Source of the DNA: Marinomonas primoryensis
Lineage (GTDB): Bacteria > Pseudomonadota > Gammaproteobacteria > Pseudomonadales > Marinomonadaceae
Assembly (NCBI RefSeq): GCF_013372285.1
Contig: NZ_CP054301.1
Span: forward strand, 1,598,001-1,662,000
Reading direction: 5' to 3'
Length of the DNA: 64,000 nucleotides
Shown: piece after piece, positions 22,783-56,913 of the stretch
Layout: each line of letters opens with the position of its first letter
Numbering within the stretch: the first letter of the stretch is position 1
Notes under the pieces: generated by a model
Database searches by the model: none
Told to the model about the DNA's origin: nothing
What the model saw: the letters and a program-made list of their open reading frames with translations, nothing else
Program-made: the position numbers and the translations under genes

Positions 22783-22835
22783 TGGTACCAGTAGGCGGAC
22801 TCGAACCGCCACACCCGAAGGCAACGGATTTTGAA
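22783..22835 (-). pseudogene. 3' half of the split host tRNA-Leu(CAA)
   Basis: Reading leftward from 22835: anticodon loop TTCAAAA, stem TCCGT, variable arm TGCCTTCGGGTGT, T arm GGCGG-TTCGAGT-CCGCC, acceptor strand TACTGGT and ACCA, ending at 22783. The bases before the loop do not pair with TCCGT, so no complete tRNA exists here. The missing 5' half is at 30058-30089, on the far side of the mobile element. Acceptor GCCAGTG pairs with TACTGGT, and ACGGA with TCCGT. Confidence 0.9.
22827..22835. repeat. left attachment core (attL)
   Basis: GATTTTGAA, identical to 30049-30057. It covers the seven anticodon-loop bases of tRNA-Leu plus two stem bases. Left flank ACG is host, right flank CTT is element. 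Confidence 0.85.
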
Positions 22836-22894
22836 CTTATACTGTCTTTACAAAAGCCCTTGAAAATCATAGTCTTATGTAGTTATTTAAAGTT

Positions 22895-22917
22895 GCTATA
22901 CAACTTACTATACAACT
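22895..22917 (+). repeat. left arm-type repeat pair, probable integrase sites
   Basis: GCTATACAAC, 4 bases, TATACAACT. The same double repeat with a 3-base spacer is at 29954-29975 in the same orientation, 60 and 73 bases from the two cores. It overlaps a possible int promoter (TTATTT 22883-22888, 17 bases, TACTAT 22906-22911), so Int might repress itself. Confidence 0.6.
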
Positions 22918-22938
22918 ATTTACATAAGAGATTGCCAT

Positions 22939-24282
22939 ATGGTAGCAAAATACGAGCGTTTAGCGAAGAGTTTAGCTATTTATAGAGTTAAAAACTCAAA
23001 TAATTTTTACGCTCGTATACGAGTGAATGGAGTAGAAATTAAGCGAAGCTTAGGAGTGTCAGACGAAGACGAAGCGAAGTTCAGAGCTTGGGAACTCCGT
23101 TCCGAACTCGAAAACCGAAATAAGCAAGGATTAGCTATTTTAGCTAATAAAAAAATTTACATTGAAGATATTGTAAATAATGTAATTATTCAGTTAGATA
23201 GTAAAAAAACACAGCTACAAATCTATAAAGACTATAAAACAGTCTTTTCAAATTTTATCATTCCATTCTTTAAAAATGTCGAAATCGTTGATTTTACAAC
23301 TAAAAAAATAAGGGATTATTTTGATAGTCAAGAATTATCTGTCACGAGAAAAAATATTAATAAAACTTGTTTTAAAATGATACTGGAATATTTAGAAGAA
23401 GAAAAAATAATTAAGAAAAATGATATTCCTATAATTCCGAAGGTAAAATCTTTTAAAGTTGAGGCAAGAGACGCTTTTAATGATGAAGATTTAAAGATTA
23501 TTTTAGAGCATCTACCAAACTTTCACGAAATCGAAAAAAATGGACGAAAAGCTAATTTTAAGACTGTTGAATACAGAAAAATACTTAATGAATATTTTCT
23601 AATATTATTAGAAACGGGATTGAGGACTGGCGAAGAATTTATAAATTTACGTTTTAATGATATCAAGAAGAAAAAACATTCTTACTACAAAGATGATTTA
23701 TTGATAGAAAATGATAATTACCTTGTGAAAATCAGCAAAGGCAAGACGAAAAAATATTCGAATGGTCGTGTTATTGCTTTAAGTTCAAAAGCTATTAACT
23801 CAATTGTTAATATTGGAAAAATCACACAACAAGATAAAAATATTACAATTGACAACTTTATATATAGTAATAAATTGATTTTAGAAACTTCTTTTAATAA
23901 AATCGCAGAATTTAGCGATATTTTTAAACAATTCACAGATTATTTAAAAGAAAGTAATTTAATAAATACTCATTATACTTTATACAGTTGTCGCCATACG
24001 TTTATAACAAAAAGACTTATGCAAGGCGTAGATATTTATCTAATTGCGAAATACGTTGGTAGTTCGGTTGAGATGATAGAGAAACATTATGATAATTATA
24101 AATTATCACAGCAGGCGCATATAGATAGTTTGACAGATTTTAATCGCAATGAATTAGAATTAAAAGCTATTCTAAATAATGTATCTTATACGGATTATGA
24201 TGATATACCGCCAGATCCTACGGAAGCTGAATTATTAAGTTTTTATAATCAAGCTGAAGAATTTTTCAAACATAACAAATAA
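22939..24282 (+). CDS. int: tyrosine recombinase (element integrase)
   Basis: 447 residues. The N-terminal arm-binding part (YARIRVNGVEIKRSLG) is followed by a SAM-like core-binding domain and the catalytic domain. Catalytic residues are Arg230 (ETGLRTGEEF), Arg352 and His353 (YSCRHTF) and Tyr384 (EKHYDNY). The first His of the usual HxxR box is Tyr here, a known variation. It should catalyse integration at the 7-base anticodon loop of tRNA-Leu(CAA) and excision. It lies about 100 bases inside attL. No excisionase is recognised. Confidence 0.9.
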   Translation: MVAKYERLAKSLAIYRVKNSNNFYARIRVNGVEIKRSLGVSDEDEAKFRAWELRSELENRNKQGLAILANKKIYIEDIVNNVIIQLDSKKTQLQIYKDYKTVFSNFIIPFFKNVEIVDFTTKKIRDYFDSQELSVTRKNINKTCFKMILEYLEEEKIIKKNDIPIIPKVKSFKVEARDAFNDEDLKIILEHLPNFHEIEKNGRKANFKTVEYRKILNEYFLILLETGLRTGEEFINLRFNDIKKKKHSYYKDDLLIENDNYLVKISKGKTKKYSNGRVIALSSKAINSIVNIGKITQQDKNITIDNFIYSNKLILETSFNKIAEFSDIFKQFTDYLKESNLINTHYTLYSCRHTFITKRLMQGVDIYLIAKYVGSSVEMIEKHYDNYKLSQQAHIDSLTDFNRNELELKAILNNVSYTDYDDIPPDPTEAELLSFYNQAEEFFKHNK

Positions 24283-24302
24283 CCCCTAAATTTCATTTCC
24301 AG

Positions 24303-24326
24303 AAGGGCACGAAGTGCCTTTTTCTT
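24303..24326 (+). terminator. terminator after the integrase gene
   Basis: Stem GGCAC / GTGCC extended by AA and TT, 3-base loop, followed by TTTTTC. Confidence 0.7.
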
Positions 24327-24390
24327 TTCCCTTTCTCTTTTTTTATATTGATTTGACAGATCAATCAAATATGCTAAATGTATTATATTG

Positions 24391-24440
24391 CAAGTAGAAG
24401 GTTGGGTTCCCCATCCTAACTTGATTTTCTCCGAAAATAT
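24391..24440 (+). other. candidate origin of transfer (oriT)
   Basis: The AT-rich gap between int and mobC contains one GC-richer patch. It holds GGTTGGGTTCC followed by CCATCCTAAC, an imperfect inverted repeat, and the string CATCCT resembles the nic region of P-type plasmids (ATCCTG). Position directly ahead of mobC and the relaxase supports the idea. The similarity is short. Confidence 0.35.
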
Positions 24441-24535
24441 GAAATTTAATAAATTAAATTTGAGAGATAGATATAAAATAAAATAACTTTCCGCATTGGC
24501 ATTTGGATAAGTTTTAGACATAAAAGGGATAGAAA

Positions 24536-24904
24536 ATGGAAAACAAAAATAAAAATAATAGAAGAAAAAGTATTCATATAAGATTAGATGATTCAACTTA
24601 TGAATTACTAAACGAGCAGAAAAGAAATTCAGGTTTTAAAAGTTGGGAAACTTTAATTATTCATTATATGAATAGCGGAAAAGGCTTTAAATCTGTTTAC
24701 GTAGATAAAGAAGGACATTCTTTAAAAGTATTAAATCATCTGATCAAATACGGAAATAATTTAAATCAACTTGCAAAAGTAGCAAATGAAAGAAAATCAT
24801 TAAATGATGATGATCTTAAAAAAATTAAAGATTTTTTAAGTCAAGGTATTAAAGCAAAAAACTATTTTACAAAACACGTAAAGCAAGCGGGAAGGGGGAA
24901 ATAA
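24536..24904 (+). CDS. mobC: MobC-like relaxosome accessory protein
   Basis: 122 residues. A ribbon-helix-helix-like N-terminus (SIHIRLDDSTYELLNEQK) should bind oriT DNA. The C-terminal part has the MobC signature HLIKYGNNLNQLAKVAN. MobC proteins help the relaxase open the transfer origin. The stop overlaps the relaxase start by one base, so the two are one operon. Confidence 0.8.
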   Translation: MENKNKNNRRKSIHIRLDDSTYELLNEQKRNSGFKSWETLIIHYMNSGKGFKSVYVDKEGHSLKVLNHLIKYGNNLNQLAKVANERKSLNDDDLKKIKDFLSQGIKAKNYFTKHVKQAGRGK

Positions 24905-26898
24905 TGACTATTTTCTCACTAAAACACGAAGCTACAACAATTAAGCAATTAAAAAAAGTTATCAAATATAACAGCAATGACAAGGTAGGATTGAATAATA
25001 CAAACAATCCAAGATTAATTTCTGTTAGTTCTAACTGTGGTTATTGTTCAAATGTAAACGACGAAAACGAATATAACCAGCTCGTAGAGAACTTTATTTT
25101 ATCAGTTGATGCTAATTCACAACTATCTAAAAATTCACGTCAAAAATACCTATACGAGCATTCTGTAATATCATTTTCAAATGATGATGATGAAAGATTA
25201 GGTATGGCTAACGCTTTAAAATTAGCAATAAAAACAGCTAAAAAATACGATCCTAATTTTGAAAAAACGCCATATATGATATGGCCGCAGGTCGATAGTG
25301 GAAAGCTTCACTTCCATATTGTGAGAGGTTATCACGACGAGTTAGGCAACTATCATAGACAAAGCAATTCGGGCTTAAAAAGACAGTCAGCAGTGCAGAA
25401 AATAGAGAAAGAGAATAAATTAACACTTACTGGAAAAAATAACCCTGATAATTACATATGGAAAATAGACGTAAATAATAAGAAAAAGAAAATATATGTC
25501 CCAAATTTGAATGATGATCATAAAAAAATAGCTAAAAATAAAGCTATCGATTACAACTGTAAAATAGACGAATTAGGCAATATTAAATATTCTTTGAAAA
25601 CAAAAGAAAATAAATTAAATTCATCTATAAATAAGAATAAAGACATTCACAGAAGTAATAAAAAAAAGGTTAATAATAAAATAAATGTAATATATGGGAA
25701 AATAACTGAATTAGAAAAGCCTATTAAATACAGTGTTTTTAAGAAAGTTAAAAACTGGTTTACTGATCAAGTAAAAATAGACAAAGAATATAATGAAAAT
25801 TTAATTAAAAATAATGAAAACAAAGTTTCAAAATTAGAAGGTATGATAAAAGATGATTGGCGTATTAAAAATAATACTCATCGTAAAATTCTTGGTAAAA
25901 AAATAATCAATGAGAGAAAAATTAATGTTGTTAATAATGAAGAAAAATATATTTTAGATAAAAAAGATGATCTTTTAAATAATGATGATATTTTTTCAAA
26001 TCTTAAAAACACTGTTAATAATGCTTATCGAAGTTCTAAAACGACACAAGAATTTATTGATATACTAAATGATAACAAGATAGAAATATTTTTAAATATG
26101 AGAGAGAACGGCACTGGTGGCATAACGTATACATCATTAAATGATGATATTTCGCTTGCAGGCGGAAAAATTAACTCATATTTGACATACGGTAAGATTA
26201 AAAAAAATGATGCTGATTTATTCGAATACTTAACTAATAGAAGCTTTAAAAATGATGAAAAATTAAGTATTAGTAATGATTTCGATGTTAAAAATATAAA
26301 CTATAATTATAAGCAAGTTAAAAATAATGATGGTTCAATGTCAATTTTCTATAATAAAAAAGATGAAGAAAAAAGACCAAACAACTTTAATTTAAAGATA
26401 AGCCAAGATAAAAAAACAATATCATTAAGCCCAAATTCAAATCCTTTCGATTTAGAATTGACTTATAAAATAGCAAAGGAGAACGGCTGGAAGGGTGCAA
26501 GTTCACAAAACAAAGAACTTACTTTAAAATCTATGAAAGTTGCATATAAAAATAATAAAGATGATTTATTTTTCTTTCAATTAGAAAATTCTTCAATCTC
26601 TCTTGATGATGTTAAAATTGTTGTTTTAAGCGAAAAAATGAGCAATTCAAATTTAATTAATCTCTATGATAATAAATTAACTAATAATAGTATTGATGAG
26701 CAAAGAAAATTTGTATTATCAAAATTAAATAATAAATATGATACTGATTATGTTCTTAATGAGTTAAATAAAGATAGATCATTAAAAAGTATATTAAATG
26801 ATAAAGACGACTTATATATTTTAAAAATAGATCATAAAAACGATCTAAATAATAATGTTAAAAATGAAAATTCAAATAAAAGGCGCTATAAATTTTAA
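24904..26898 (+). CDS. MOB-type relaxase / mobilization nuclease
   Basis: 664 residues. The N-terminal domain carries the HUH metal motif KLHFHIVRGYHDE (His136 and His138) with VISFSNDDDE before it. It should nick the oriT, stay bound to the 5' end and be carried into the recipient through a helper secretion system. The rest is long, lysine- and asparagine-rich, with low complexity and no recognised helicase or primase motif. The exact MOB class is not clear, and I could not fix the catalytic tyrosine. The end overlaps the convergent Rep-like gene. Confidence 0.75.
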   Translation: MTIFSLKHEATTIKQLKKVIKYNSNDKVGLNNTNNPRLISVSSNCGYCSNVNDENEYNQLVENFILSVDANSQLSKNSRQKYLYEHSVISFSNDDDERLGMANALKLAIKTAKKYDPNFEKTPYMIWPQVDSGKLHFHIVRGYHDELGNYHRQSNSGLKRQSAVQKIEKENKLTLTGKNNPDNYIWKIDVNNKKKKIYVPNLNDDHKKIAKNKAIDYNCKIDELGNIKYSLKTKENKLNSSINKNKDIHRSNKKKVNNKINVIYGKITELEKPIKYSVFKKVKNWFTDQVKIDKEYNENLIKNNENKVSKLEGMIKDDWRIKNNTHRKILGKKIINERKINVVNNEEKYILDKKDDLLNNDDIFSNLKNTVNNAYRSSKTTQEFIDILNDNKIEIFLNMRENGTGGITYTSLNDDISLAGGKINSYLTYGKIKKNDADLFEYLTNRSFKNDEKLSISNDFDVKNINYNYKQVKNNDGSMSIFYNKKDEEKRPNNFNLKISQDKKTISLSPNSNPFDLELTYKIAKENGWKGASSQNKELTLKSMKVAYKNNKDDLFFFQLENSSISLDDVKIVVLSEKMSNSNLINLYDNKLTNNSIDEQRKFVLSKLNNKYDTDYVLNELNKDRSLKSILNDKDDLYILKIDHKNDLNNNVKNENSNKRRYKF

Positions 26899-27527
26899 TA
26901 ATAAAATTTATAGTGTTCTTCTAATGTTGGTGAATTTTTGTTAACAGGGTATTTATATTTGACTTCTACATTTAAGCTTTTAAAAGCTTGTTTAATTTTG
27001 AATATTCTTCTATCTCTTCGCTCAATTTTATACAAATCTAAAACTTTAAATAAATAATTTACGTCTAAATAACCACTAGGCTTCATTGCTAAAATCATCG
27101 CTAGTTTAGTTGTTCTTATATCTTTTATGCTTTTCAATGTTTTTAACTCTAATTTATTAAAACCACTTTTTTTCATCGTTTTTATATATGTATCAGTAAA
27201 AGTAAAACTTATAGTTTTATTTTCTAAATCATAATCAATCAAATCAAAGAATTTTGAAATTATTATATGATGCGTCAACAAGAATTTTTCAATATAAATA
27301 AAACTTAAAGTAGCTCTACACAAATAACTATCACTCGCAAAAAAGTTTTTTAATGAAAAAGTCAAATAGTTTTCATCTGTTTTGTTATTCTTATAAATCA
27401 TCGTTGCGTTTGATAAGATCGCAACAAATAGTTTAATGTCGTGATTTTGTTTAAAATCAAATAATTCATAATGTAGTTTGTTTTCTCTGTTCATTAATTC
27501 TCTCGCTATTGTAAAGTATTCGATCAT
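26895..27527 (-). CDS. putative replication initiator-like winged-helix protein
   Basis: 210 residues of unknown family. The C-terminal half (ELKTLKSIKDIRTTKLAMIL, then RRDRRIFKIKQAFKSLN) resembles the second winged-helix domain of Rep_3/RepB-type plasmid initiators, where similar runs end in 'ikqAfkelN'. It is transcribed away from an iteron-like array that begins about 230 bases upstream of its start. That is the classic arrangement for theta plasmids, so extrachromosomal replication after excision is possible. Identification is tentative; a DNA-binding regulator is the alternative. Confidence 0.4.
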   Translation of the reverse strand: MIEYFTIARELMNRENKLHYELFDFKQNHDIKLFVAILSNATMIYKNNKTDENYLTFSLKNFFASDSYLCRATLSFIYIEKFLLTHHIIISKFFDLIDYDLENKTISFTFTDTYIKTMKKSGFNKLELKTLKSIKDIRTTKLAMILAMKPSGYLDVNYLFKVLDLYKIERRDRRIFKIKQAFKSLNVEVKYKYPVNKNSPTLEEHYKFYY

Positions 27528-27660
27528 TTTATATATTCCTCATTATATAATTTTAAAAATTAAACAGTGAAGAAATACATTATTTCAAATTTAATTATTG
27601 ACTTTATAACAATTAAATGTATATTAATTTATATCTTCTTGCCGGAAGTTTAATTTTTTT

Positions 27661-27698
27661 AAAAGTCGCATTCATTTATTTGAATGCGATTTTTTTTG
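27661..27698. terminator. hairpin terminator in the element
   Basis: Stem TCGCATTCA / TGAATGCGA flanked by A and T runs, ending TTTTTTTT. It lies between the Rep-like gene and the iterons. Confidence 0.75.
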
Positions 27699-27761
27699 TT
27701 TATAATTTCAATTAATCATATTTTTTTAAATTGTCAAATTATGTATTAAAGTGTTGGGTCA

Positions 27762-27884
27762 AAAAGCTTAATTGTGGTGTGTGTGATTGAAAATAAAAGC
27801 TTAATTGTGGTGTGTGCAAAGTAAAATAGTGGTGGATGAAGAAGTAAAATAGTGGTGGATGAAGATGTAAAATAGTGGTGTGCT
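27762..27884 (+). repeat. five-copy iteron-like direct repeat array
   Basis: Two copies of AAAAGCTTAATTGTGGTGTGTG (27762-27783, 27795-27816), two of a related 24-mer with GTAAAATAGTGGTGGATG (27819-27842, 27842-27865), and a fifth variant (27867-27884). Aligned on the GTGGTG core, successive copies are 33, 22, 23 and 23 bases apart, multiples of a DNA turn. This looks like an initiator-binding iteron set. Confidence 0.75.
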
Positions 27885-28030
27885 AATAATATAGATTACT
27901 AACTAATGTAGATTAGTAACTGATTTAGAATTTTTAATATAGATAAAAAGAACTTAAATTTTCTTTCTTTTATCTTTCGCAAAGTGACGCAAAAAACAAA
28001 AGTAAGACTTATTAAGTGCATAAGAGATTT

Positions 28031-28236
28031 AAGAGATATGCCCTTCGGGCTTTTCTGGAAGTGCGGAAGAGCGTAGCGATGACCGTAAAAAGCGTTTAAA
28101 TGATGTTTTAAGCGTGTTTTTTATTTCTTTGATATGATTGGTTAAGATATTAAAGAGATATGCCGCAAGCGGCTTTTCTGGAAGTGCGGAAGAGCTAAGT
28201 GATGATCATATAAGCGTTTAAACGATGTTTTAAGTG
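28031..28236 (+). repeat. duplicated hairpin block of about 85 bases
   Basis: Two similar stretches, about 28031-28116 and 28153-28236. Each starts AAGAGATATG, has a small hairpin (GCCC-TTC-GGGC in one, GCCGC-AA-GCGGC in the other), then CTTTTCTGGAAGTGCGGAAGAGC, and ends near GCGTTTAAAYGATGTTTTAAG. The hairpin bases differ but pairing is kept. Together with the iterons this fills the 875-base gap 27528-28403; no gene is seen in it. Confidence 0.7.
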
Positions 28237-28403
28237 TATTGTGTGAATTTATAATTCGACAGACCTTGAAAAAGAATCTAATAGTGTTTAATTTACTAAT
28301 AAGCTTACAAAAGACGGCCTGTGTCAATTATTTCTAAGGTTTAAGTCTCAATCTTAAGATTCTGTTGTTGCACTATTAATTATTTTATTTAAGGATTTAA
28401 AAA

Positions 28404-29438
28404 ATGCGTTTAATATTCACTTCTTTATTGATTCTATTTTTTTGTTCAGGATGTAAAAGCACAGAAAACTTAATTAGTTCATACAAAGAATCATTAAAGT
28501 CTCCAGAGCAAAAAACAAACGAAAGTATTGATCAATGGATTAGTTCTAAAGATTTGGAGATTTTAAAAGAATTTAATTATTCAATGCCATTTTCAATTGG
28601 TAATTCTATTAAATATATTAAGGAGGATGATTTAATAACTTTCTATAAGCGCATAGATTCAATGAAGGAAGATTTTATAATAAAATCTAAAAATTATGAA
28701 AATGATATGCCTAAACTTTTAGAGTTGTACCGATCTATTGATAGTGTGATTTATAGTTTTAACGTGACAAGAAACTTTATTGATAGTGTTGTTGAAAAAC
28801 ATGCAAATGAGTTTGAGAATTATAAATCTGATAATAATATCGGTTTTTATGATTTGTTTAACTATTGTGATGCTAATAACATAGAATCTAAAGATTGCAT
28901 GGAAAGAAATGGAATTAAAGAGATTCTTTTTTCTAATTTAATAAGTGAAAATAATAATTATGATCAGTATATAAAGAATTTGAATAGGGAAATCTTTTCG
29001 TTAAAAGAAGTTATTAGGGATATTGCTATTAAAGGTAAAAATCATGAGAAGAAAATATTTCTAACTAATGCTAAATTGAATGGTTGTGAAAAAGCTAAAG
29101 ATCTAAATTTTCGTGAGAATAACAGTCTCTCTGATTTGATTGGTTTTGATTATTTTAAGCCGAATGATCAACTTATATATGAACTAAAAGGTTTTAAGAT
29201 TTCTCAATCTCTTTCAAATGGTCTCCTATTATCATCTACTTCAATGCGTAATTATTCAACACCGTTTATATTTGTAGATTTATCTGGTTTATATGCTGAT
29301 GATTATGTATTTGATAAAGATGAAGAATATGTTTGCTATTCTGGCATTAAAGAATATAAATCTATTTTAGGGGTAATTAAACGAGTTAATTCTTTTCATG
29401 CTATTAAGGATGATAATAAATATTACTTTTTAAAATAA
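28404..29438 (+). CDS. predicted lipoprotein of unknown function
   Basis: 344 residues with a type II signal: MRLIFTSLLILFFCSGC, lipid Cys at 17. The mature part is helical, rich in Asn, Lys and Asp, with charged stretches between 40 and 210, then a beta-rich end with four Cys. I recognise no family. It is the only gene on the element without a mobility or maintenance role, hence possible cargo. It has its own terminator and AT-rich codon use like its neighbours. Confidence 0.75.
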   Translation: MRLIFTSLLILFFCSGCKSTENLISSYKESLKSPEQKTNESIDQWISSKDLEILKEFNYSMPFSIGNSIKYIKEDDLITFYKRIDSMKEDFIIKSKNYENDMPKLLELYRSIDSVIYSFNVTRNFIDSVVEKHANEFENYKSDNNIGFYDLFNYCDANNIESKDCMERNGIKEILFSNLISENNNYDQYIKNLNREIFSLKEVIRDIAIKGKNHEKKIFLTNAKLNGCEKAKDLNFRENNSLSDLIGFDYFKPNDQLIYELKGFKISQSLSNGLLLSSTSMRNYSTPFIFVDLSGLYADDYVFDKDEEYVCYSGIKEYKSILGVIKRVNSFHAIKDDNKYYFLK

Positions 29439-29461
29439 TATTTATTATTTGAATTACATAT

Positions 29462-29486
29462 AAAAAGACCTTGAAGGTCTTTTTTA
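29462..29486 (+). terminator. terminator of the lipoprotein gene
   Basis: Stem AAAAAGACC / GGTCTTTTT with a TTGAA-type loop. Confidence 0.85.
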
Positions 29487-29555
29487 CTGTTTAAAATCGT
29501 ATTATTTATCTTTTAATATACGAATTAGTTCCAGAAAACCCTTTTTAAATTCATA

Positions 29556-29585
29556 AAAAAGCCCCAATAAAGGGGCGTTTTTTTA
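29556..29585 (-). terminator. terminator of the element tRNA-Leu gene
   Basis: Stem GCCCC / GGGGC flanked by A6 and T7 runs, directly after the tRNA 3' end on the minus strand. Confidence 0.8.
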
Positions 29586-29587
29586 GT

Positions 29588-29940
29588 TGGTAGCGGTAGC
29601 CAGACTCGAACTGGCACACCCGAAGGCATCGGATTTTGACATTTTCACGGACTATATCATCACCCTAAAAAATAGGGGCTGGACGCTTTTTCATTAAGAT
29701 ATTAATACTTAACTAATTCCTGTTATTAAGCCTATTCGCATAAGCTCAGGTAGTCTCTGAACCTTCCCAGACTCCGTGGGCTTGGCTGCTGATTGTCTCG
29801 TCAAAGATTTTCCAGCAATTCATCCAATTTAATCGACTTTCTTACGAAAGAAGCGGACTCGTTTATTTTTTCTTTCACTCTATTAGAGTGTTTTCAGACA
29901 CAGATTAATCCGACGTGTCTACCAATTCCACCATACCGCC
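29588..29940 (-). tRNA. intron-containing tRNA-Leu(CAA) carried by the element
   Basis: Exon 1 is 29940-29908 and exon 2 is 29639-29588, together 85 nt including an encoded CCA. Folded: acceptor GGCGGTA with TACCGCT, D arm GTGGAATTGGTAGACAC, anticodon stem TCGGA with TCCGA around loop TTCAAAA (anticodon CAA), long variable arm, T arm GCCAG-TTCGAGT-CTGGC, then ACCA. The D arm, loop and variable arm are identical to the split host gene. The first pair is G-U in both. A group I intron separates bases 32 and 33. It should read UUG codons and replace the broken host gene. Confidence 0.9.
29640..29907 (-). ncRNA. group I self-splicing intron in the tRNA anticodon loop
   Basis: 268 nt without an endonuclease gene. 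All four group I core elements are present on the minus strand: P AATTGCTGGAAAATC (29820-29806), Q AATCAGCAGCCAAGC (29794-29780), R GGTTCAGAGACTACC (29763-29749), S GATGATATAGTCCGT (29661-29647). GACTA of R pairs with TAGTC of S as P7. The internal guide GTCTGA (29899-29894) pairs with exon TCGGAT, giving the required U-G pair at the 5' splice site. The last intron base is G. A P2 hairpin CACTCT/AGAGTG follows. Confidence 0.93.
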
Positions 29941-29953
29941 AACAATTCCAAAA

Positions 29954-29975
29954 GCTATACAACAGTTATACAACT
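29954..29975 (+). repeat. right arm-type repeat pair, probable integrase sites
   Basis: GCTATACAAC, 3 bases, TATACAACT; same orientation and nearly the same sequence as 22895-22917 at the other end. It overlaps the -10 of the element tRNA promoter. Confidence 0.6.
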
Positions 29976-29992
29976 TTTTTTATCTTTTTCAA
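29965..29992 (-). promoter_or_regulatory. possible promoter of the element tRNA-Leu
   Basis: On the minus strand TTGAAA (29992-29987), 16 bases, TATAAC (29970-29965). The start would be near 29958, 18 bases before the tRNA. Binding of integrase to the overlapping arm repeat could block it. Confidence 0.45.
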
Positions 29993-30048
29993 AACTATAA
30001 GTTGATGTTTTAAAAGAATATTTTCTTAAAAAAATGATAAACCGTTTC

Positions 30049-30057
30049 GATTTTGAA
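30049..30057. repeat. right attachment core (attR)
   Basis: GATTTTGAA, identical to 22827-22835. Here the right flank TCCGT is host anticodon stem and the left flank TTC is element. Confidence 0.85.
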
Positions 30058-30089
30058 TCCGTCGTGTCTACCAATTCCACCACACTGGC
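30049..30089 (-). pseudogene. 5' half of the split host tRNA-Leu(CAA)
   Basis: From 30089 leftward: acceptor GCCAGTG, D arm TGGTGGAATTGGTAGACAC, anticodon stem ACGGA, loop TTCAAAA, then the element sequence CGAAACGG instead of the expected CCGTTGCC. It complements the 3' half at 22783-22828 exactly; the two give an 85-nt tRNA. Confidence 0.9.
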
Positions 30090-30108
30090 CTTGAAAAAGG
30101 TGAGGCGT

Positions 30109-56428: not shown

Positions 56429-56775
56429 GCAAGTTGGCTAGGCAGTCGCCGCTCAATTTATTGGGGGGAGGAAAGTCCGGGCTTCGCAGGGTAAAGTGCC
56501 AGGTAACGCCTGGGGGGCGTGAGCCTACGGAAAGTGCAGCAGAAAATACACCGCCTAAGCAGTTTACTGCCGGTAAGGTTGAAATGGTGCGGTAAGAGCG
56601 CACCGCGCGACTGGCAACAGCTCGTGGCAAGGTAAACCCCACTTGAAGCAAGACCAAATAGGAACTCTTTGGCGTGACCCGCGCTGAGTTCGGGTAGGTT
56701 GCTAAAGACGTGCAGTGATGTACGTATTAGATGAATGACTGTCCACGACAGAACCCGGCTTATCGGCCAACTTGC
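56429..56775 (+). ncRNA. rnpB: RNase P RNA, bacterial type A
   Basis: The terminal helix GCAAGTTGGC / GCCAACTTGC closes the molecule. Inside are the universal GAGGAAAGTCCGGGC, GCCAGGTAACGCCTGG, GGTAAGAGCGCACCG, AAACCCCAC, CAAATAGG and the 3' GACAGAACCCGGCTTATCGG. About 347 nt. It cuts leaders from tRNA precursors. Confidence 0.97.
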
Positions 56776-56913
56776 ATTTTCCTTTCTTTGTTAACTTCTC
56801 ATGTAAAACAAAATACCTAAAGGGTTTCAGTATTCTTGGCCTTTTTTGCGTGTGAGTTTTCTCATATCGTTATTATTTCAGTTTTTCTGAACTCCTTATG
56901 TTGCTGATCGAAT

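Follow-up and report, generated by a model that had tools for sequence, protein, structure and literature searches.

A mobile element of about 7.2 kb in the genome of Marinomonas primoryensis splits a host tRNA-Leu(CAA) gene and very probably supplies, in its stead, a complete tRNA-Leu(CAA) gene interrupted by a group I intron, which would be the element's replacement gene and not the host's own. The locus lies in a stretch of 64,000 nucleotides (the window), to which coordinates refer unless a genome or locus is named. A sequence-only reading of this DNA had described the intron, the tRNA and their boundaries, all of which stood, while the element-borne status of the replacement, the split host gene and the two identical copies of the element had been missed.

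The element is inserted in the host tRNA-Leu(CAA) gene beside queA, at the 7-nt anticodon loop, and stands out by its composition, with the GC content falling to 23-31% between about 23 and 30 kb of the window. The host halves, the junctions and the genes of the element are as follows:

22783-22835, minus strand: host tRNA-Leu(CAA), displaced 3' half that runs from the anticodon loop to CCA and joins the 5' half
22827-22835, minus strand: copy of the att core TTCAAAATC at the left junction, common to both junctions
22836-30048, no strand: integrative mobilizable element of about 7.2 kb, with 26.4% GC against 41.8% for the window (composition; another tRNA-Leu(CAA) holds a second copy, the two being identical over 7,220 bp)
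22939-24282, plus strand: tyrosine recombinase (integrase), 447 aa (PF00589, E 5e-08; phrog_1 integrase, 5.9e-28)
24536-24904, plus strand: MobC-like mobilisation protein (PF05713, E 6.8e-07)
24904-26898, plus strand: putative relaxase-like protein, 664 aa (position after MobC and HFH motif)
26895-27527, minus strand: element protein with no function assigned (Pfam and phrog searches)
28404-29438, plus strand: element protein with a lipoprotein-like start and no function assigned (sequence; Pfam and phrog searches)
30049-30057, minus strand: copy of the att core TTCAAAATC at the right junction, common to both junctions
30051-30094, minus strand: host tRNA-Leu(CAA), displaced 5' half that ends in the anticodon loop TTCAAAA and joins the 3' half into a complete tRNA-Leu(CAA)

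The core TTCAAAATC consists of the anticodon loop and two further bases. An integrase (PF00589), a core shared by both junctions and empty sites in relatives mark the insertion as an integrative element, probably a mobilizable one; among its putative mobilisation genes, MobC was matched (PF05713), while the relaxase candidate gave no match in Pfam, NCBIfam or PDB. Known tRNA islands and integrative mobilizable elements (Islander, PMC4383910; PMC5704250) are similar in having a tyrosine integrase, a target in a tRNA gene, an attachment site centred on the anticodon and MobC-type mobilisation. However, those islands rebuild the target tRNA gene at one junction, and the targets are described as restored (PMC5704250, PMC4383910), whereas here neither junction rebuilds it: the 5' half continues into TCGAAACGG and the 3' half is preceded by AGTATAAG, and a separate, complete, intron-bearing tRNA gene replaces the target.

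A second intron match of equal score was found in the same genome, which consists of one 4.07-Mb contig, and it belongs to a second copy of the element that splits the other host tRNA-Leu(CAA). Comparison of the two copies over 7,378 bases revealed 15 differences, all outside the element, and the identity over 7,220 bp points to a very recent move, an indirect sign of excision and transfer. An unbroken anticodon arm of tRNA-Leu(CAA) survives in one or more copies in 49 of 50 Marinomonas genomes, and empty (uninserted) sites occur in other members of the genus; the present genome has no unbroken arm. Two pattern searches of this genome returned no further tRNA-Leu(CAA), and four pattern matches considered as an intact third gene (L007, L254, L257 and L260) were rejected as not being tRNAs. 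Hence, the intron-bearing genes of the element appear to be the only remaining source of tRNA-Leu(CAA) in the genome.

A cmscan search of the window, the Infernal/Rfam check that the sequence-only reading had proposed, upheld the intron as group I. The Intron_gpI model (RF00028) matched at 29894-29629 on the minus strand with 64.5 bits and an E-value of 4.4e-14, over its full length (1-253 of 253) and above its curated cut-off of 50 bits, and the match, to the intron at 29640-29907, is the sole group I intron in the window. ARAGORN reported no tRNA in the window when run without introns; with introns allowed, it called tRNA-Leu(caa) i(34,268) on the identical second copy, equivalent to c29588-29940 of the window. 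Once joined, the exons fold into a complete, standard tRNA-Leu(CAA) with CCA, in agreement with the tRNA named earlier as the host of the intron. The features of this gene are:

29908-29940, minus strand: 5' exon of the element-borne tRNA-Leu(CAA), nucleotide 1 to U32, 33 bases (ARAGORN with introns, identical copy L003 c14916-15268)
29640-29907, minus strand: 268-nt group I intron, lying between U32 and U33 in tRNA-Leu(CAA) (RF00028; boundaries from P1/IGS covariation, omega G and the spliced tRNA fold)
29897-29901, minus strand: intron strand of a helix that we name P0, pairing with the exon D-arm GACAC (29919-29915), five of five pairs in all nine homologues
29854-29858, minus strand: internal guide sequence (IGS) GUCCG, pairing with exon CGGAU (29912-29908), U.G at the splice site (exon/IGS pair CG, UA or GC in homologues)
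29588-29639, minus strand: 3' exon, U33 to CCA (ARAGORN with introns, identical copy)
29561-29576, minus strand: terminator-like hairpin with a run of T, immediately after the tRNA (sequence)

At one end of the element, a distance of 117 nt separates the start of the intron-bearing tRNA from the host loop; the integrase lies at the other end, so both would flank the attachment site in the circular form.

In an alignment of nine homologous introns, RNAalifold gave 63 pairs, 25 of them with two-sided changes. The P1 exon/guide pair switches in step between C-G, U-A and G-C, the U.G wobble at the 5' splice site and the intron-terminal G are present in all nine, and a P10 pairing is possible between UC of the 3' exon and the GR that precedes the guide sequence. 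P1 covariation, the invariant U.G and the possible P10 therefore fix the intron between U32 and U33: U32 is the last base of the 5' exon, G the last base of the intron, and U33 the first base of the 3' exon. The end points 29640 and 29907 of the earlier reading are thus exact (covariation and spliced fold), and its guide sequence with a U-G pair at the 5' splice site and its terminal G are borne out across the homologues. P0 is likewise kept in all nine, with a consensus of exon D-arm GACRC and intron GYGUC, and is compensated in two of them (GACGC/GCGUC in G163 and G062). The group I identity rests on the covariance model and the covariation, not on the fold z-score, since the intron RNA folded alone gives z = -1.73, which by itself is weak evidence. 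A first guess for P1 in G000, GUCUGA near the intron start, was dropped because it is not conserved, whereas GUCCG is. The intron contains no endonuclease gene, as had been read; its description as minimal is loose, introns of 204-240 nt being present in the survey described below.

Related elements within the genus reveal which parts of this arrangement are constant. M. alcarazii carries the same element, with a 93% identical integrase, a split host gene and a replacement with a 261-nt intron. In M. pollencensis (G026), the integrase is 88% identical and the same host gene is split, and the replacement tRNA-Leu(CAA), which has a different anticodon stem, is intronless; the replacement of a more distant element in G037 is likewise intronless. 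What these elements have in common is thus the replacement tRNA, not the intron.

The element tRNA-Leu(CAA) of M. alcarazii (L010 c12839-13184) has a T.T mismatch in the anticodon stem (CTGGA/TCCTG), and the native queA-linked tRNA-Leu(CAA) of Marinomonas sp. G018 (L128 c10726-10810) likewise has mismatches in this stem (ACGGA/TCCTG). In the latter, the odd bases on the 3' side match those in the 3' exon of the element tRNA of M. alcarazii and could be the trace of an earlier integration or gene conversion. G018 furthermore has a different group I intron after nucleotide 34 of a tRNA-Arg(UCU) (L011 18516-18836); 130 nt upstream lies a diverged 5' fragment of a tRNA-Arg, which ends short of the anticodon arm.

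We propose that the tyrosine integrase recombines with the host tRNA-Leu(CAA) within its 7-bp anticodon loop, TTCAAAA. Integration has left two useless host halves with nothing to restore the gene, and the element itself supplies a complete tRNA-Leu(CAA) next to the attachment site. Tyrosine integrases of this type have a strand-exchange overlap of about 7 bp, which the anticodon loop and its stem fit (PMC8371274). The intron between U32 and U33 divides the seven loop bases 1+6, which would leave no uninterrupted crossover sequence in the replacement gene, and this gene should consequently escape the same or other anticodon-loop integrases; left unprotected, a replacement would offer a further target some 150 bp from the end of the element. 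After transcription, the intron would excise itself and rejoin TTCAAAA to give a normal tRNA. The sequences themselves show the integration, the recent move and the loss of the host genes; splicing in the cell, the exact cut of the integrase and the protection are points that we infer from them.

The intron does interrupt the shared loop TTCAAAA in the surviving tRNA copy, the junctions being what points to this loop as the crossover. With the intron deleted, the replacement would differ from the host target by two mismatches in 25, with an identical 15-bp centre; the intronless replacements of G026 and G037 have four and six mismatches and a 13-bp identical centre. Masking of the crossover is probable as a physical consequence of the intron; whether it is also the reason that the intron is kept is close to an even question, leaning slightly towards no. 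The intron is not required, given the intronless replacements that G026 and G037 keep. Nor does masking seem to be a general rule, since these intronless relatives count against it, as do the elements of G292 and G1094, in which the displaced piece extends as far as the T loop, and a crossover there is beyond the reach of masking by an intron in the anticodon loop. Intron-bearing tRNA genes of Thaumarchaeota that still serve as targets (PMC8371274) also count against it.

If masking is right, a ribozyme would protect the replacement gene of a mobile element, which would be a bacterial counterpart of a proposal made for archaea. We tentatively extend this, at somewhat under even chances, to gammaproteobacterial integrative elements that would use self-splicing introns as armour for their own tRNA copy against the same or competing anticodon-loop integrases. 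Such armour, if true, would partly explain the anticodon-loop location of bacterial group I introns and their spread, and would join two questions that are usually kept apart: the introns in these loops and the integrases that attack the same seven bases. A recently moved, natural 7-kb element makes the masking idea testable.

A serious rival, to which we give a substantial though minority chance, is that the intron is a mere passenger: the replacement would be brought because the host gene is destroyed, and the intron would have come along with a tRNA gene that already bore it, group I introns having an independent preference for tRNA anticodon loops. An RF00028 survey bears on this; it covered 392 genomes in the order, with matches in 31, then 369 in the class, with matches in 56, and 399 in the phylum, with matches in 34. 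Leu(CAA) introns were found at 10 loci in nine genomes, six genera and five families, all after nucleotide 32, while nearly all other intron sites resolved lie after 33, 34 or 36; loop positions were assigned by rule (5' exon ending in T, intron in G, 7-nt loop), those of Leu(CAA) being also backed by covariation. A displaced Leu(CAA) half lies within 220 nt at five of the 10 loci, with none at the other five, and in G062 and G163 the same intron is in the native queA-linked tRNA-Leu(CAA), with no element seen. These native introns, the intronless replacements and the T-loop fragments beside anticodon-loop introns keep neutral carriage a serious rival.

What speaks against neutral carriage is the uneven distribution of displaced halves, which also adjoin intron-bearing Leu(UAA), Arg(UCU) and CAU tRNAs. 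An automated scan found such halves at 10 of 57 intron tRNA loci, while the opposite strand had none; shuffled sequence gave an expectation of 0.27, with a maximum of 3, and a wrong-loop control gave 3 of 347; G161, G1094 and G909 are further cases beyond these 10. Among the 28 CAU introns that lie after nucleotide 36, the scan found no displaced half and inspection by eye only one (G161), a scarcity that would itself suit a passenger, whereas the other intron tRNAs have displaced halves at 10 of 29 loci (p 0.005; 0.012 without the duplicate copy), in several tRNA kinds and with unrelated integrases. Two elements have the same plan as that of the window with different integrases. G172, of another family, has a 16-kb element with both halves 16 kb apart and another integrase beside one half, and the halves in G236, which flank a 51-kb element whose integrase has an Arm-DNA-bind_3 domain, together give a perfect tRNA-Leu(UAA).

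In the same survey, the 51-kb element that splits tRNA-Leu(UAA) and carries an intron-bearing replacement was located at about 2,098,000-2,149,500 of G236:C1 (L125-L127). The displaced fragments that reach the T loop, at L057 (G292) and L232 (G1094), both run into TTAT, followed by the intron-bearing replacement tRNAs. Six RF00028 matches (L031, L036, L100, L107, L111 and L113) had no ARAGORN intron tRNA, and intron calls by ARAGORN of 'tRNA-Gln(CUG)' and 'tRNA-Phe(AAA)' were rejected as misplaced boundaries of CAU and Leu(UAA) tRNAs.

It is very unlikely that the tRNA is dead, its intron decayed and non-splicing, and that this is tolerated as tRNA-Leu(UAA) reads UUG. The genome does have tRNA-Leu(UAA), because of which tRNA-Leu(CAA) may be dispensable, and a promoter scan of the strand of the intron-bearing tRNA passed none; against this stand the full-length model match above the cut-off, the preserved core and P1, the two-sided changes among the homologues and the complete spliced tRNA. 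An ordinary native tRNA-Leu(CAA) with an intron, adjoined by unrelated tRNA debris, has its precedents in G062 and G163 but is scarcely credible and is refuted for this locus, where the halves on either side of an element of 26% GC with an integrase make up a perfect tRNA-Leu(CAA), the host's other gene is split by an identical copy, and other Marinomonas have empty sites.

With the element-borne replacement as the preferred reading, the closest prior idea is archaeal (PMC3293823). The Caldiarchaeum tRNA-Thr(GGU) (Sugahara 2012, PMC3293823) similarly combines a recombinase element, a displaced 5' tRNA fragment and an intron-bearing tRNA brought by the element, and its authors suggest, following an idea of Randau and Soll, that the intron-bearing tRNA prevents further invasion (PMC3293823). 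That single metagenomic case has archaeal, protein-spliced introns at 24/25 and 45/46, whereas ours presents a bacterial group I ribozyme, presumed to splice, at the likely crossover site, in two identical copies in a complete genome. No bacterial precedent for an intron-masked replacement tRNA and no group I intron in tRNA-Leu(CAA) were found in a literature search that lay largely outside subscription titles. The earlier reading likewise did not list tRNA-Leu(CAA) among the known hosts of such introns; the survey shows that this one is not unique. The bacterial tRNA introns of cyanobacterial tRNA-Leu(UAA) and fMet, Azoarcus tRNA-Ile(CAU) and Agrobacterium tRNA-Arg(CCU) are alike in being small, endonuclease-free and of self-splicing type, with an RF00028 core in the anticodon loop; the present intron differs in its tRNA-Leu(CAA) host, its site after nucleotide 32, its location on an integrative element and the additional helix that it forms with the D arm of the exon. 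A single tRNA-Leu(UAA) intron from a gammaproteobacterium was reportedly described in 2002. Reviews place bacterial tRNA group I introns in cyanobacteria and alpha- and beta-proteobacteria only (PMC4033280, PMC11408192), and a group I intron review does not mention integrases (PMC3984707).

A phage origin of the intron was rejected, as phage matches share the core only (about 80% over 140-180 nt); the three examined lie in or beside genes for ribonucleotide reductase, DNA polymerase I and terminase. A pattern for the intron 3' end had 94 matches in viral contigs, and the 80 of these that were listed proved unrelated on reading. No viral relatives of the integrase were found, nor, in plasmids, phages and E. 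coli, any integrase or intron match beyond phage-type cores. Elsewhere in the window, a class A RNase P RNA was identified at 56430-56778 (326.5 bits).
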